Assembly (NCBI GenBank): GCA_029009115.1 | Contig: JAQXJU010000042.1 | Span: forward strand, 1-64,000 | DNA length: 64,000 nt | Source: Bacteroidales bacterium | Lineage (GTDB): Bacteria; Bacteroidota; Bacteroidia; Bacteroidales; UBA932 | Reading direction: 5' to 3' | Notes under the pieces: model-generated | The model's input: only the letters and a program-made list of their open reading frames with translations | The model's database searches: none | Told to the model about the DNA's origin: nothing | Shown: positions 36,842 to 54,785 of the stretch, piece by piece | Numbering within the stretch: the first letter of the stretch is position 1 | Layout of the letters: each line of letters starts with the position of its first letter | Position numbers and translations under genes: made by a program

Positions 36842-38002
36842 ATGATTGAGATGAAACTGAAAATGATTACTCTGCTGACATTGCTGTGCGCGGCAGTGTC
36901 CTGCGGAACGCTCGGACAGGTTTCTTCCAACCAGAAGTATACTGACGGAATCTACTCCACACCATCGGAGCAACCTGAAAGCGTTCTGAAAGCCAATGAC
37001 AGCCGGTTCGAGCAGCTTGCCCTGCGCACCGGCGGAAGTCGCATCTATCTTCGCGGCAACAAGGTCGATACCCTTGTCATTCCCGAGAGGATGAATGCTA
37101 CGGTCCAGGTTCGCGATTCTCTTACAATCGTTGACCTTTATGACTCCGAGACTGCCTGGCGCAGCCCCTACGAATGGAACTATTGGAATTTCGGCTGGGC
37201 CACTGCTTGGATGTACCGGCCATATATGTGGCACTCGCCGTATTACTACGGCTGGCACGATCCCTGGTACGCCTGGCACAGTCCCTGGTACGGCTTGTAC
37301 GACCCCTGGTACAGTTGGCACAGTCCCTACTACGGCTGGTATGACCCTTGGTACGGCTTGTACGACCCCTGGTACGGCTGGTATGACCCCTTCTTCGGGC
37401 CTGCATTCTATCCTCCTCATCACCACCATCACCATCATTACTACGATCCCCAGGGACGCAACTATATGCCGAGGAATGTAGCAATGGGCGGTACAGTGGG
37501 CAGCCGGGGTGCTTCGACCATAGTAAACAGGAGCGCCATATCGCGCAGCGGAGCGCACTTGGTAAGCCGCACTTCCGCTTCGAGGAGCGTGGCTGCCGGT
37601 TCGAGGGCATCTTCCAGTAGGATTGCATCATCCTCGCGCAGCACTGTCTCAGGCGTCTCCACAAGCCGTCCGGCATCTTCAGTGTCAAGAAGCCAGGCAT
37701 CGGGCAGCCGTTCATCCGCGCAGACAGGCTCTGTGAGCCGTCCTTCAACGGCCACTTACTCCAGACCCCGTCCTTCATCGGGCGAGAGTTACCGCTCTTC
37801 GGAGAGTTACTCCAGTAGTTCTTCGTCGTCCTCTTCTTCTTCGTCCTACTCACGCGGAAGTTCCTCACAGTCTTATTCCCGCGGCTCATCCTCGGGAAGT
37901 TCATACAGCGGTTCCAGAGGCGGTTCCTCGTACAGCGGCGGGGCATCCCGCAGTTCAGGCGGCTCCTCGTACAGCGGTGGCAGCCACGGTTCCCGCAGAT
38001 AG
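36842..38002 (+). CDS. Lipoprotein with aromatic WY repeats, His tract and Ser-rich tail
   Basis: Lipobox [27 protein letters not shown] repeats; HHHHHHHYY; Ser/Gly-rich C-terminus. Confidence 0.75.
37253..37399 (+). repeat. 21-bp in-frame tandem repeat (7 units), WYG(L/W)(Y/H)(D/S)P
   Basis: tggcacgatccctggtacgcc-type 21-mers seven times within the lipoprotein ORF. Confidence 0.85.
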
Positions 38003-46548: not shown

Positions 46549-46697
46549 AATAGTGTGGTTTTAAGTTCTCAGCAAATATATGCAGATTCCTTGCCAAAGA
46601 CGAAGATATTAATGATTATCAATGGTAAAAACGTTACCTATGGAGATATGTTTCAATCTAAGGTTTGTTATTTACCATAAAATGCTATATTTGCCGT

Positions 46698-47588
46698 ATG
46701 GAAAACCTTAAAAAGACATTCTGCCGCTTCGATATGGTATGCGACGACCCTGCCGGAGTGGGGCTTGAAGTGATTCGTATGCCTCAGTTCTTCAGCCGTG
46801 CGCAAGAGATGGAAACAGACCGTTTCCATATGCACGGTTTCTATGAGATTGTATGGTTCAAGGACGGTGGGGGTGTGCACCACATTGATTTCAACGACTA
46901 TCCTGTCGAGCCCGGAAGAATTTTTTTCGTTTCCGTGGGGCAGGTTCATTCCTTCGACGCTTGCCGCGAACGAGAAGGCGTCGTTATCAAGATCTGCCCG
47001 GAACTGATTGGCGGCGACTGCGGCTCATCCGACGGCGGATATCTGCGTTTCAATGTCTTTGATGCCACTGACAGCCTGCCCTACTGCGATGTCCCCAAGG
47101 AGGGGGTCCCCCTGCTCGATTCGCTTGTTGCTGCAATAGAAGAAGAGCTTAAGCAAGATACCGCAATAGGGCACAAGGAGTACCTTCAGTCTCTTCTGAG
47201 GATGTTCCTAATCACCGTACAGCGCCAGTCGGGAGGGAGGCAGCACAGCGTCATGAATCCGGCCCGCAATTCCCACAGGTCGTTCCTGGCTTTCCGCAAA
47301 CTGCTTGAAGAGAATTATCCCCGTCTTCACACGGTCAAGGACTATGCCTCAATGCTCAGCATCACCCCAAAAACGCTCACTCAATACGTGAACGAGTGTT
47401 CTCCTATGACCCCTCTGGAGATGATCAACTCCAGAATCGTTCTCGAAGCGAAGCGTCTGTTGAGGTATTCAGTATTGTCTGTCAAGGAGATAGCCTTCCG
47501 CCTCGGCTTCGATGACCCTTCCTACTTCGTGAAGATGTTCAAGCGCATAGTCCACCAGTCTCCGGCCGACTACCGCGAATCATTTTGA
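46698..47588 (+). CDS. AraC-family transcriptional regulator
   Basis: Cupin-like N-terminus and C-terminal HTH (VKEIAFRLGFDDPSYFVKMFKRIVHQSPADYRESF). TATATTTG ends 4 nt before the ATG. Confidence 0.88.
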   Translation: MENLKKTFCRFDMVCDDPAGVGLEVIRMPQFFSRAQEMETDRFHMHGFYEIVWFKDGGGVHHIDFNDYPVEPGRIFFVSVGQVHSFDACREREGVVIKICPELIGGDCGSSDGGYLRFNVFDATDSLPYCDVPKEGVPLLDSLVAAIEEELKQDTAIGHKEYLQSLLRMFLITVQRQSGGRQHSVMNPARNSHRSFLAFRKLLEENYPRLHTVKDYASMLSITPKTLTQYVNECSPMTPLEMINSRIVLEAKRLLRYSVLSVKEIAFRLGFDDPSYFVKMFKRIVHQSPADYRESF

Positions 47589-47642
47589 AGATGTTCAATC
47601 GCATAGTCCACCAGTCTCCGGTCGACTACCGCGAATCATTTT
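47531..47642 (+). repeat. 56-bp tandem duplication of the AraC gene 3' end
   Basis: gaagatgttcaa(g/t)cgcatagtccaccagtctccgg(c/t)cgactaccgcgaatcatttt twice, 2 mismatches. Confidence 0.95.
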
Positions 47643-49591: not shown

Positions 49592-49621
49592 CAAAAATAC
49601 ACAATAATCCGAAACTCCAAA
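49592..49621 (-). promoter_or_regulatory. Bacteroidetes-type promoter for cysK leader
   Basis: Minus strand TTTG-N18-TATTTTTG. Confidence 0.65.
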
Positions 49622-49640: not shown

Positions 49641-50584
49641 AGGGCATTCTGGAGGGGGTAGTCTCAAAAGGTGAATATCACGAGATTGCTCAATCGGTCT
49701 CTGAGGTACTTCTGGAAGGGGCAGCGCCAACCGGTGAAATTCACCTCGCGAACCGATATGCCTCTGAGGGCATTCTGACGGGGGTCCGTCCCGAAGGTGA
49801 ATTTCACGAGATCACCCAATCGGCCTCTCAGGTACTTCTGGCAGGGGTTACCCCAACCGGTGAAATTCACCTCAAAACACAATGTGCCCCAGAATGCCCT
49901 GTAGAGGGGGTAAGGCTCTGAGGTGGACACAAAATCGTTCCACCTCGAAGGCTAACCTGCCCCAGAAGGCCTTCTGATGGGGGTCCGTCCCGAAAGGTGA
50001 ATTTCACGAGAACTCTCAATCGGCCTCTCAAGTACTTCTGGCAGGGGTCTCCCCAACCGGTGAAATTCACCTCGAAGAGCAATGTGCCTCTGAGGGCCTT
50101 CTGAAGGGGGGCGCCTCGAAAGGTGAATTTCACGAGATTACCCAATCGGCCTCTCAAGTACTTCTGACAGGGGTTGCCCCAACCCGTGAAATTCACCTCA
50201 AAAGGCAATGTGCCTCTGAGGGCATTTTGAAGGGGGTCGGCTCTGAAGGTGAATTTCACGAGTCATCCCAATCGGCCTCTCAGGTACTTCTGACAGGGGT
50301 AGCCCCAACCCGTGAAATTCACCTTGAAAGTCAATGTGCCCCAGAATGCCCTGTGACGGGGGTAAGGCTCTGAGGTGGACACAAGATAGTTCCACCTCGG
50401 AAGACAACCTGCCCCAGAAGCCCTTCTGAAGGGGGTCCGTCCCAAAGGTGAATTTCACGAGATCGCCCAACCGGCCTCTCAGGTACTTCTGACAGGGGTT
50501 ACCCCAACCCGTGAAATTCACCTCGAAAGACAATGTGCCCCTGAGGGCATTCTGGAGGGGGTCGCCTCGAAAGGTGAATTTCAC
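49641..50584. repeat. 63-bp tandem repeat array with dyad GTGAAWTTCAC in nearly every unit
   Basis: Dyads start at 49671, 49734, 49797, 49860, 49997, 50060, 50123, 50186, 50249, 50312, 50448, 50511, 50574; wide palindromes at 49920-49946 and 50372-50398. Confidence 0.93.
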
Positions 50585-50621
50585 GACAGAATAGTCGAAT
50601 CTCATCCCAGTGACAAAGAAT

Positions 50622-50735
50622 GCTACCACAAACATTATAGCGAGCAAGTGCCACATTATGCTAACCACAAACATTATAGCGAGCAAGTTCAACATTTGCT
50701 AACCACAAACGCTGTTGCAAGCCAGTGGACACTTG
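50622..50735. repeat. 38-39-bp tandem repeat, 3 units (third diverged)
   Basis: gcta(a)ccacaaacattatagcgagcaagt... at 50622, 50660, 50698. Confidence 0.8.
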
Positions 50736-50904: not shown

Positions 50905-52242
50905 ATGAATCGCAAGCTGATCATAGCCGCGCTCTGTCTGCCGGCCTTTATCTCTTGTACAGAAGAAGGCAATCTTTTCGAACCGACTCCTTTTCTGGAA
51001 GTGCGACAGGTCACTGAAACCCCGCAACAACTACCGGAAACCCTGCAACAACTATCGGGAACCATGCAACAACTTCCAGGAACCCTGCAACAACTTCCGG
51101 GAACCCTGCAACAACGTCCGGAAACCGCGCTACAACTTCCGGAAACCGCGCTACAACTTCCTGGAACCGAAAGCCGTTCTCCAAGAGTCGAAGTTACTCA
51201 ACTGCAAGGTGGTGAAGAATCCATACTCTATTTCGACCCTGAAGAATCCGAGATTGTGCTTGAAGTCATCTCGAACAGGTCGTGGAGCCTGACCGGGAAT
51301 AAAGAATGCGAATGGATTTCGGCAGACCGTAAGGAATTCTTGAACCTCGGCGGTTCCACCCAGTCAACGCTGCTACGCTTGAAGGCATCTCCCAACCCGA
51401 TTCGGGAGGTACGGAACACGGCAATTGCTATCAGCGGAGAAGCAGGCACCAGAAATTTCACATTATCCCAAAAGCGAGCAAAGCCCACGGTATCTTTTGC
51501 CTTTGAGGATCGCAATAGATACCTTGACCCGCAGTATTTCAGTTCACTCGGCGGCAAAAGATGGGGCAAAATCACCTGCAATTCTTCGTGGACGGCAGAA
51601 ATCGATACCGATCTTACTACTGCCGAGGAAGTAAGTCTTGAAACAAGCAGTGGAGAAGGGAATCTTGATGTCTTCACAGTCGTGGTCGGAAAAGCGAATC
51701 TGGATTTCGACAACACCAAAGACATTGTCGTTCGGTTCCATATGGAAGACGACACTGAAGGAACAATATCATTCAAGCAACAGAAAGGCTCTATTCTGAC
51801 CTTTGAGTTCATGGGGCAGGACTGCAATGCAAAGAACTGGCTGTTCGAGGGAACTAACCCCGGAAGCAGCAACAAGGGACAAGGCAGTTTCTTCACTCCG
51901 GGCAAAGAATATGAGTTGTCTTACTCTGCCACAACAGCCTGCTACCTGTACAGCAGCGGGATGCAGTGCGGCTCAGGAGCCTCAGACTACTTCGAGTTGC
52001 CTGCAATCGAAGGGAAACGTCTTGTCAGAATTACCGATACAGATGCCAATGGCTCCACAAAGCCTTATATCTGCGACCGGAATATGAATCCCGTTAAGGG
52101 TGGCGAGTACAACAGCGCATTCACAAAGCATGTTCCCTTCACCTGGAATCTCGAAGAAACCCTGCCGGGAGAGAGGTACCGCATTGTCAGCGGCCATACC
52201 AAAACACAAAGAATCAACACATTGGAACTTGAATACGAATGA
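50905..52242 (+). CDS. BACON-domain lipoprotein with N-terminal heptapeptide repeats
   Basis: Lipobox CLPAFISCTEEG; BACON-like IVLEVISNRSWSLTGNKECEWISADRKE...RNTAIAISGEAGTRNFTLSQKR; TATATTTG -7 box upstream. Confidence 0.75.
   Translation: MNRKLIIAALCLPAFISCTEEGNLFEPTPFLEVRQVTETPQQLPETLQQLSGTMQQLPGTLQQLPGTLQQRPETALQLPETALQLPGTESRSPRVEVTQLQGGEESILYFDPEESEIVLEVISNRSWSLTGNKECEWISADRKEFLNLGGSTQSTLLRLKASPNPIREVRNTAIAISGEAGTRNFTLSQKRAKPTVSFAFEDRNRYLDPQYFSSLGGKRWGKITCNSSWTAEIDTDLTTAEEVSLETSSGEGNLDVFTVVVGKANLDFDNTKDIVVRFHMEDDTEGTISFKQQKGSILTFEFMGQDCNAKNWLFEGTNPGSSNKGQGSFFTPGKEYELSYSATTACYLYSSGMQCGSGASDYFELPAIEGKRLVRITDTDANGSTKPYICDRNMNPVKGGEYNSAFTKHVPFTWNLEETLPGERYRIVSGHTKTQRINTLELEYE
51016..51171 (+). 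repeat. 21-bp in-frame tandem repeat (~7.4 units), (E/G)TxQQLP
   Basis: ETPQQLP ETLQQLS GTMQQLP GTLQQLP GTLQQRP ETALQLP ETALQLP GTES. Confidence 0.9.
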
Positions 52243-54785
52243 AAAGACTGTCTTTGTTCCTTTCCGCGATATGTGTCTGCACCTGTCTTTGGGCCCAGGC
52301 ACCTTCCAGCGTTGAAGAAAAGTTGATGTGGACTACATCAGGAGTGGATATCGTGTCTCAAGACGGCTCTGTATTGGGTGAGATTATGGTATATCTTAGG
52401 GGTAAGAACGGAATCTTCTCGAACGGAAAGCCGCTCTGGGTCATCGATGGAGTGTTCATCAACACCGATTCGTCGGAGGATATGCCTTTCTGGAACGACA
52501 ATGGCGCGTTGTACTGCGGAAGGCAGAACACGCTGCTGGGAATCAACCCGGAGGACATCGAGTCGGTCGAAATCCTGAAGAATCTGACCGCTACGGCTGT
52601 CTATGGTTCGAGAGGGGCCAATGGGGTTATAATAATAAGGACGAAGAGGCCTAATAAGAATTTTGCCAGATTGTCGTTGTCGGGGGCTGGTGCTTTTGCA
52701 AGCGGCAGTAGCCAGAGCGGAGGAGCGAGCCCGGTCAGCGGTGCCAGCCAGAGCGGAGGAGCGAGCCTTGCCAGCGGTGCCAGCCAGAGCGGAGGAACGA
52801 GCCCTGCCAACGGTGCCAGCCAGAGCGGAAGGTCGAGGGGAGTTGCGGGATGCGGGAGTGCGTTCGGAGCGGCGGGATTCTTCCGGAACGGAAACAGCCT
52901 CTACCTCTCCGCAGGTCTGAACAGCATCTGCGCTCCCGGGACATATGCTGGAGCTGGGGCCTCTTCCGGAGCTGGGACATCTGCCGGAACTGGGGCATCT
53001 GCCAGAACCGGAGAATCTGCCGGAACAGGGTCATTCCGGCTAAATTTCCAGAGTTCGGCAAACAGCAAGATTGACTTTGCCCTGAACTGCGCCGCCAGCC
53101 TGGGGAATCTGAGCCAGGACAACTGGAGAAACATCACCAACGGCGACTTCGACGACTCCTCCCGCGAACTGAGGACTTCTGACGGAATCAGCCTCGGGCT
53201 GCATCTGGGACGATACGTCACTTTGATGGCCAATCTGGGACTTGACTACCGGATGAAGAGAAGATACGTGTGGGCTGGTCCCGAGAGCAAGTTCGGGGAA
53301 ATCAAAAACGGAGCCGCATCTGTCTCAAACACAAACACTTTCCAATACAACGCAAAGCTTGCTTCGAACTATGAGAAGCACTTTGGAAAGCACCATCTTC
53401 ACACTTCTCTGTTTGCTGACTGCATAAGTGGGACTCCCGATTACAGCGTTCTCTGCGGATACGATTTCTTCAACTATAGCCTTGGAGCAAAGGGTATAAG
53501 CCTTGCTGCCGAAACGAGCACGAACCGAAGTTTCAACTGGAACTTCCAAGAAATCGGCCTCGGGGCAAGCGCCAGTTACGAATACGACTCCGGCCTGTTC
53601 GGAGCCAATCTTCTCTACAAAGCCGGATGCAATACCTCATACGACTCCGGCCTCCAGAACAGTTATCCGGCAGTGGAGGCGTACCTCGACCTGGCAAAAC
53701 TTCTGAAGGGTTCCAGGTCTTCCGGTCGTACTGACAAGTCCTCAGGTTCCACCAAGTCCGGCCAGGGGGCAAATGCCTCTGGTCCCGCTTCTCCCCTGTC
53801 GTCGCTGAAGTTCAGCGCGGGATGGGCAATAGCGGGATACGACCGGAGTATGCCCTACCAGTGGGCAGCCCTGCTATCAGAGCAGATTCCCTCTGTTGCC
53901 ACTGACTTTCAGGGATTCTACGATGCTCTTCTGAGGCAGAATTCCGCTGAGACAAGGGCAGGTATGCATCTCGGACTGTTCGGCGAAAGAATAACTCTGG
54001 ATGCCGTTTGGTACCGCAAGAGCACCTCAGAAACCCTCTCTCTCTACTGCTACGGCCGGGAGTTCGGCGAGAACGGATTCTGGAAGGAAGCTCCTCAGAG
54101 TCAGGTCTTTGAGCAGGAGGGAAGGCTTGTGAACACAGGCGTCGAAATCGACCTCCGGACTGTAATAATGAATACCCCCAGGATACACTGGGAGATGAGC
54201 GCGGGAGCATCTTTCAACTCGAGTCTGGTCGCAAGTCTGCCCGAGCAGGTGCTCTTAAGAGATGGCGTAACAGGCTCGAAGTCAATCGCCTACGTAGAAG
54301 GCTACCGCCCCGGAAAGATTATCGGATACCTGTCCGCCGATGCGGGGCTGCCTGGCGGAACGGGGGTGCCAGGCGGAACTGGGGTATCTGGTGACACTGG
54401 AATGTCCGGAGGAACGGGGGTGCCCGGCGGAACAGTTCTGAAGGATCTGACTGGCGACGGGGTCATTACCGAAGCGGATCTTACGATAATAGGCGACAGC
54501 CTGCCCAAAGCTCTGGCATATATAAGCACATATCTCAAGTGTGGCAGTTTTGAGTTGGATGCCAAAGCCGGAATCAGAATCGGATGCGACTATGTCGATT
54601 ACTCACAACTCTTCCCCTGCGAAGGACCAGTCGCATTGACCGAGAAAATGATTGCAAGAAGGGCCCCTGTCACTTACAGTTTGAGCGCATCCTACTCATT
54701 CTCAGGCAAAAAGGTCATTTGGGAACCTTTCCTCAGGGCTTCCACATACCGTACCCTCATAGCAGGAATTCAGTTGGGCTTCTAA
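52239..54785 (+). CDS. SusC-like outer membrane protein lacking N-terminal domain and recognisable TonB box
   Basis: NGKPLWVIDGVFINT, INPEDIESVEILKNLTATAVYGSRGANGVIIIRTK plug motifs; beta-barrel C-terminus; ATGA overlap with BACON gene. Confidence 0.82.
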   Translation: MKRLSLFLSAICVCTCLWAQAPSSVEEKLMWTTSGVDIVSQDGSVLGEIMVYLRGKNGIFSNGKPLWVIDGVFINTDSSEDMPFWNDNGALYCGRQNTLLGINPEDIESVEILKNLTATAVYGSRGANGVIIIRTKRPNKNFARLSLSGAGAFASGSSQSGGASPVSGASQSGGASLASGASQSGGTSPANGASQSGRSRGVAGCGSAFGAAGFFRNGNSLYLSAGLNSICAPGTYAGAGASSGAGTSAGTGASARTGESAGTGSFRLNFQSSANSKIDFALNCAASLGNLSQDNWRNITNGDFDDSSRELRTSDGISLGLHLGRYVTLMANLGLDYRMKRRYVWAGPESKFGEIKNGAASVSNTNTFQYNAKLASNYEKHFGKHHLHTSLFADCISGTPDYSVLCGYDFFNYSLGAKGISLAAETSTNRSFNWNFQEIGLGASASYEYDSGLFGANLLYKAGCNTSYDSGLQNSYPAVEAYLDLAKLLKGSRSSGRTDKSSGSTKSGQGANASGPASPLSSLKFSAGWAIAGYDRSMPYQWAALLSEQIPSVATDFQGFYDALLRQNSAETRAGMHLGLFGERITLDAVWYRKSTSETLSLYCYGREFGENGFWKEAPQSQVFEQEGRLVNTGVEIDLRTVIMNTPRIHWEMSAGASFNSSLVASLPEQVLLRDGVTGSKSIAYVEGYRPGKIIGYLSADAGLPGGTGVPGGTGVSGDTGMSGGTGVPGGTVLKDLTGDGVITEADLTIIGDSLPKALAYISTYLKCGSFELDAKAGIRIGCDYVDYSQLFPCEGPVALTEKMIARRAPVTYSLSASYSFSGKKVIWEPFLRASTYRTLIAGIQLGF
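52701..52833 (+). repeat. 36-bp in-frame minisatellite (~3.7 units), SGASQSGGASPA
   Basis: agcggtgccagccagagcggaggagcgagccctgcc-type units. Confidence 0.9.
52941..53035 (+). repeat. 18-bp in-frame minisatellite, (A/T)G(A/T)SAG
   Basis: AGASSG AGTSAG TGASAR TGESAG TGS. Confidence 0.85.
54344..54433 (+). repeat. 18-bp in-frame minisatellite (5 units), collagen-like GVPGGT
   Basis: GLPGGT GVPGGT GVSGDT GMSGGT GVPGGT. Confidence 0.92.

Follow-up and report, generated by a model that had tools for sequence, protein, structure and literature searches.

The hairpins associated with RAYT transposases are well described in Proteobacteria, whereas for Bacteroidetes the part of the source available to us speaks of just 'atypical secondary structures' (PMC6006769). 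According to the same part, the subclass 2.6 TnpA_REP (RAYT) genes of Bacteroidetes, which correspond to Bertels group 5, are flanked by such structures, which lack GT[AG]G and have copies elsewhere in the genome; neither arrays nor the architecture of the elements are given in the available main text (Quentin et al. 2018, PMC6006769). In Pseudomonas fluorescens SBW25, REPs and REPINs form ordered tandem clusters and 71-bp doublets (Bertels and Rainey 2011, PMC3116915), and RAYT-like genes flanked by inverted repeats have been described as TIRtrons, or TIRYT (Di Nocera et al. 2013, PMC3733652).

Here we describe an array of palindromes in a 64,000-nucleotide stretch of a Bacteroidales genome (the window). 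It probably consists of hairpin elements of an atypical REP/REPIN-like (BIME-like) family that are clustered in tandem and associated with RAYT transposases. Comparison across species revealed a family of hairpins that are dispersed and extragenic, with a stem kept between species, a fixed unit length and a RAYT neighbor in several species. The unit of this family, a 56-bp hairpin (ACC...GGT), occurs singly or doubled through a palindromic linker of 16–17 bp.

Palindrome arrays in the window and its genome

The window contains 13 matches to GTGAAWTTCAC with at most one mismatch, every one of them within 49671–50584. Shuffled windows gave 0.94 ± 1.04 such matches, and 13 was reached in none of 100 shuffles. 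The dyads start at 49671, 49734, 49797, 49860, 49997, 50060 and 50123 in the first half of the array and at 50186, 50249, 50312, 50448, 50511 and 50574 in the second half, the first one being the variant GTGAATATCAC (49671–49681). Ten of the intervals are 63 bp, one is 137 bp and one is 136 bp. Direct reading also identified two wide palindromes, GAGGTGGA-N11-TCCACCTC, at 49920–49946 and 50372–50398, and the half-sites stay in register, with GGT-N7-ACC at a narrow junction and GGT-N17-ACC at a wide one. An earlier interpretation made from the letters alone (the sequence-only reading) had reported these dyads, intervals, wide palindromes and half-site register, all of which are present as it described them.

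Oriented arrays of this genome are built from two kinds of unit, type B (GTGAAATTCAC..GTGAATTTCAC) alternating with type A (GTGAATTTCAC..GTGAAATTCAC), and a wide palindrome is the junction of two B-like units. The spacers of A and B are approximately 60% alike in direct orientation; the homology among spacers that had been noticed before is thus real, with the refinement that it comprises two alternating types. In the window, the whole array, with 13 narrow dyads and two wide palindromes, spans 49641–50584 and lies on the minus strand in the family orientation, with matches across it to R2, a model that includes the hairpin stem. It begins with a B unit at 50511–50584 (R2 score of 76.8 bits), followed by an A unit (50448–50521) and a B-wide-B double element at 50312–50458, which contains the wide palindrome at 50372–50398 and gives R2 matches at 50312–50382 and 50385–50458. 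Next come an A unit (50249–50322), a B unit (50186–50259, 80.8 bits), an A unit (50123–50196), a B unit (50060–50133, 73 bits) and an A unit (49997–50070). The second B-wide-B double element, at 49860–50007 with R2 matches at 49860–49932 and 49933–50007, is laid out like the double elements found in relatives, its wide palindrome (49920–49946) forming the GGT-N17-ACC linker. A linking A unit (49797–49870) and a B unit with its two dyads, together a 74-bp hairpin element (49734–49807, 72 bits), precede the partial unit that ends the array at approximately 49641. In the linking unit, the stem is lost.

The array is flanked by divergent genes. A Bacteroidetes-type promoter match upstream of cysK, TTTG-N18-TATTTTTG, adjoins the array outside the element at 49592–49621 on the minus strand, which fits the earlier statement that the array starts some 20 bp upstream of a cysK promoter. 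Any host function of the arrays, including an effect on cysK or on the BACON/SusC genes, is putative. The window also holds other repeats. A distinct 39-bp tandem repeat (2.4 copies, 92% matches) lies between the array and the BACON gene at 50620–50710, and seven in-frame 21-bp repeats encoding (E/G)T(L/A)QQLP-like heptads are found at 51016–51168, near the N-terminus of the BACON-type lipoprotein. A TonB-dependent-receptor-like gene, which adjoins a second, SusC-like gene, carries in-frame 18/36-bp repeats (SQSGGASPASGA-like) at 52710–52829, 52936–53034 and 54343–54433. Elsewhere, 6.9 copies of the 21-bp repeat TACGGCTGGCACGACCCCTGG, YGWHDPW-like if coding, occupy 37247–37391, and a 56-bp direct duplication (96%) is present at 47530–47642, at the 3' end of an AraC-type regulator gene (46665–47588).

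The assembly from which the window comes comprises 2.04 Mb in 116 contigs, and the dyad counts cover 1.89 Mb (93%) of it. This sequence holds 297 exact dyads, grouped in 59 essentially intergenic clusters, as expected of a short extragenic palindrome of the REP kind in high copy number; using a simple gene caller, only 2 of the 59 clusters touch a predicted gene end or start. Intervals of 63 bp (180) and 136 bp (42) prevail, most of the others being sums (126, 199, 272) or slips by one base (64, 137), so the 63-bp spacing is kept across the whole genome. When the 11-bp narrow and 21-bp wide junctions are pooled, 266 of the 282 gaps that separate neighboring junctions measure exactly 52 bp; each of the 50 wide palindromes in the genome has a core of 11 bp. 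The arrays are spread over dozens of contigs, where their gene contexts are unrelated, and gene 3' ends border them more than 5' ends; for clusters of at least three sites with genes on both sides, the same gene caller gave 11 convergent, 6 tandem and 4 divergent placements. Array orientation showed no significant relation to GC skew (21 of 34). Because many arrays sit at contig ends, they may also be breaking metagenome assemblies.

This distribution does not support the proposal of the sequence-only reading that the array is an iteron, centromere or local operator array, and a single operator is rejected. Tandem palindromes at fixed spacing would suit an iteron, centromere or replication-origin array, for which one or few loci per replicon are expected; with 59 clusters counted at dozens of unrelated intergenic loci, such a role is contradicted and we regard it as extremely improbable. 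Just as little can be said for protein-coding repeats of 21 amino acids (63 bp being 21 codons) that are partly broken by now. Long open frames do run over the array on both strands, but in the best forward frame 12 of 97 A units and 19 of 83 B units contain stops, the N/S ratio of 0.8 in A and 1.1 in B is near or above neutral in B, and the 136-bp steps break the frame; nor did the unit alignments show a clear excess of third-position variability. A coding origin therefore has almost no likelihood left, and the frame, which is free of coding constraint, favors a real DNA element. The genome-wide spacing and the conservation pattern, two further tests named by the sequence-only reading, point the same way, with a perfect dyad at 130 of 137 narrow internal register positions and a single mismatch at the other 7, whereas spacer columns are off consensus in approximately 16% of cases.

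A hairpin family in the genus

The genus, which has over 400 sampled species and belongs to a family with few sampled genera, may be Cryptobacteroides. Searches across the genus with the exact pattern and with blastn matched the window genome alone. A sequence-only profile built from BA dimers (R1) detected diverged copies in four further genomes of the genus, as isolated 74-bp single elements and double elements of about 147 bp, with half-sites in the same register. The elements of these relatives align over 74 columns without gaps, and 80.8% of their stem cells pair, compared with 24–41% when the partners are slid; stem cells changed on both sides number 44, against 17.2 in shuffles. Because these elements were found with a model of sequence only, the pairing was not selected for. 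Searching with R2 extended the family to 85 of 300 sampled genomes of the genus (E ≤ 1e-3). At the order level and a stricter cut-off (E ≤ 1e-4), the window genome was matched and none of the 197 others in a sample of 198, which included one other genome of the genus. In a further 15 loci, which had not been used for training, pairing extends to 88.7% of stem positions, versus 22–44% with slid partners; this is a weaker test because R2 itself favors pairing. Complementary changes, as in REPs and REPINs, have thus kept the stem in relatives, whereas in the window species the inner stem is decayed in B and lost in A, and the hairpin function may no longer be selected there.

The sequence-only reading had also considered an array of structured RNAs. 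The element might be maintained as a transcribed RNA stem-loop at gene ends, where it would stabilize or terminate transcripts; the compensatory stem changes in relatives and the favored convergent placement (11, versus 6 tandem and 4 divergent) are in line with this. Placement at 3' ends is, however, expected of harmless insertion too, the window copy lies between divergent genes, and the element is near-palindromic, so that the profile matches on both strands. In addition, a search with the Rfam 15 covariance models gave no match for the element (one tRNA and a sub-threshold microRNA match were found elsewhere). Within the species, where the stem has decayed, mutual information is confined to neighboring columns, and alifold predicts a hairpin without covariation support (a covariation term of -0.52 of -19.86). 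The earlier idea of structured RNAs is thus half right: a hairpin is kept between species by compensatory change, but it lacks a match to an Rfam family, and the RAYT-type transposases beside it suggest a REP-like hairpin of single-stranded DNA; we judge a maintained RNA function to be quite unlikely.

The preferred reading, a RAYT-associated hairpin element, is supported by the common grammar of the family. The unit runs over 56 bp from ACC to GGT (55 bp in some genomes), and a linker search allowing 4–34 bp recovered the family at one length only. The palindromic linker is 16 bp in G239, G264 and G060 and 17 bp in L228-type loci and in the array of G181. In these terms, the wide palindrome of the window is the 17-bp linker form, and the narrow dyad corresponds to a linker of 7 bp, in which two element ends have merged into one. 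Doublets have a pitch of mostly 71 bp (G239 and G264) or 73 bp (G180 and G181), and of 63 or 73 bp in the window genome. The 10-bp step in the window genome is therefore real, and the helical phasing first proposed for the array holds in that genome at 63 and 73 bp; with doublets mostly at 71 bp (about 6.8 turns) in G264 and G239, whole-turn phasing is not a rule of the family. A true tandem array was also observed in another species (L241, contig C23 of G181, approximately 1479–1725), with 73-bp steps and 17-bp linkers of varied sequence. In contigs of other genomes, a set that may have lacked the window species, and in viral contigs, the search gave scattered dyad pairs only. GTGAAWTTCAC pairs recur in an Azoarcus sp. 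MAG (L172 and L182, with 126-bp steps) and in a Phycisphaerales MAG (L159, L164–L167, L174 and L179), and these are probably independent repeat families.

The same spacing raises the question of whether the arrays work as duplex DNA, the hairpin being a mere origin. The 11-bp dyad would then be a cooperative site, used genome-wide, for a dimeric nucleoid-type or regulatory protein, and a spacing of 6 or 7 turns would put the dimers on one helix face. The dyad is almost invariant among variable spacers, the 52-bp gap is held at narrow and wide junctions despite their difference of 10 bp in length, and the inner stem has decayed in the window species with no covariation left within it. A fixed length is likewise expected of a copied element, though, and the pitches of relatives are 71–73 bp, the first of which is not a whole number of turns; no candidate binding protein was identified, and the arrays are bordered by more 3' than 5' gene ends. 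We find it unlikely that such binding sites account for the arrays. A related scenario is that a RAYT-type hairpin has been turned, at about 60 loci, into phased duplex sites bound by a dimeric protein with an architectural or regulatory role, and for this, too, the chance appears small. The decayed stem, the near-invariant 11-bp dyad and 52-bp spacer, and junctions that differ by one helical turn fit such a conversion, to which we give the same low weight.

RAYT-type neighbors and a proposed mechanism

In at least 10 genomes, far above chance, a copy of the element lies beside a gene for a RAYT-type (HUH, Y1) transposase, as REPs and REPINs do. G060 has a 320-aa RAYT-like gene with elements on both sides. 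RAYT homologs adjoining an element were identified by sequence in G060, G264, G184, G001, G306, G287 and G023 and by coordinates in G239, G012 and G119. Outside the window genome, at least 7 of 14 close RAYT homologs have an element within 262 bp, with approximately 0.2 expected (P ~1e-9 on a rough uniform model). The proteins share the invariant residues H79, H81, Y138, N142, Y155, W157 and S158 (HxH, Y...N, YxWS), which supply the HUH motif and the catalytic tyrosine of a Y1 transposase. REP_Tyr_transpos is the best NCBIfam match in 6 of 7 of them, below the curated cut-off, and the best PDB match is E. coli TnpA_REP (4er8) with a weak E-value of 0.089.

The window genome encodes one intact RAYT, on contig C12 (1576–2532), which matches REP_Tyr_transpos with an E-value of 1.4e-8, again below the curated cut-off. 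This RAYT is not flanked by the dispersed repeat: no GTGAAWTTCAC dyad is present on its 3.5-kb contig, and the element closest to the gene lies at a distance of 264 bp from the 3' end, at 1145–1312 of C12 (L017). It is a different double palindromic element, with two 67-bp units that have another, AT-rich core and are joined by the same 17-bp linker; it is flanked by CTCGAGCAAATCACC/GGTGATTTGCTCGAG, and no second copy of it was found in the genome sequence covered. What connects the C12 RAYT with the arrays is its subfamily, because in G264 and G060 its relatives are flanked by elements whose ends are GTGAAATTCAC or GTGAAATTTAC, the sequence of the window dyad. By this sequence relationship, the C12 RAYT may have made the arrays of the window genome. 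The position of the genome's own RAYT away from the dyad arrays, the RAYT profile scores below cut-off and the lack of a GTAG/GTGG foot all count against the RAYT/REP interpretation. As to the foot, reading alignments A1–A3 revealed no conserved GTRG at the ends of the hairpin, which is why we file the element as REP-like and not as a canonical REP.

We propose that the RAYT would recognize the hairpin as single-stranded DNA, cut and rejoin it, and so spread the element, as has been proposed for the REPs of E. coli and Pseudomonas. In the window species, the element ends would have become the perfect palindrome GTGAAWTTCAC, which is simultaneously a direct and an inverted repeat. Because of this double nature, neighboring units could share one 11-bp end (the 7-bp linker) and be gained or lost in exact 63-bp steps, either by the RAYT or by recombination, while older doublets (B-wide-B, with a 73-bp step) would remain embedded in the arrays. 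The dyad may stay intact because copying is restricted to units with working ends, or because a protein binds it. Mobility alone does not explain its extreme conservation, which raises the question of why the dyad is conserved so far above its surroundings.

Comparison with known systems

The family now has a concrete definition, namely a 56-bp hairpin unit with a 16–17-bp or 7-bp linker, a conserved core and a RAYT neighbor, which spans one species-rich Bacteroidales genus. The window genome is its extreme case, where shared palindromic ends appear to have yielded satellite-like arrays at about 60 loci in a 2-Mb genome. A modular tandem layout is also known from BOX elements, which are intergenic stem-loops with a variable number of internal tandem units and for which we know of no link to a RAYT. 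The BOX elements of Streptococcus pneumoniae (PMC3049150, of which a part was available) are among the closest known systems; the layout is alike, whereas sequence and host are unrelated. Enterobacterial BIMEs are likewise mosaics of palindromes at regular spacing, extragenic and linked to TnpA_REP (PMC2817692), but their sequence is unrelated, and the present units neither have a GTAG foot nor alternate in orientation. Dimeric or grouped repeat families are also formed by the inverted repeats that flank the RAYT-like genes of TIRtrons (PMC3733652); as read by eye, the GGGGWSAS motif of TIRtrons is not conserved in the present units.

No published description of the GTGAAWTTCAC element was found in a search limited to open-access papers, and the earlier statement that no described element matches was nearly right. 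The closest description is that of the 'atypical secondary structures' of subclass 2.6 TnpA_REP, as given in the available part of its source (PMC6006769). Both cases involve a Bacteroidetes RAYT-type gene flanked by weak hairpins without GT[AG]G, with dispersed copies. The distance between the HuH motif and the tyrosine has a median of 82 aa in subclass 2.6 versus about 57 aa in the RAYTs described here, whose long C-terminus resembles subclasses other than 2.6 (PMC6006769, same part). As both features differ, these RAYTs are at most candidate members of subclass 2.6.

In architecture, the REPINs of P. fluorescens SBW25 are similar in their short-spaced doublets, their ordered tandem clusters, the position of clusters beside RAYT genes and their extragenic location (PMC3116915). 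They differ in having REPs of the GTRG type in inverted orientation (PMC3116915), whereas the arrays described here, with up to 13 narrow dyads each, repeat a 56-bp hairpin in direct orientation, keep a conserved core and share ends between units. The kind of element is known, and the version with strict 52-base spacing is new.
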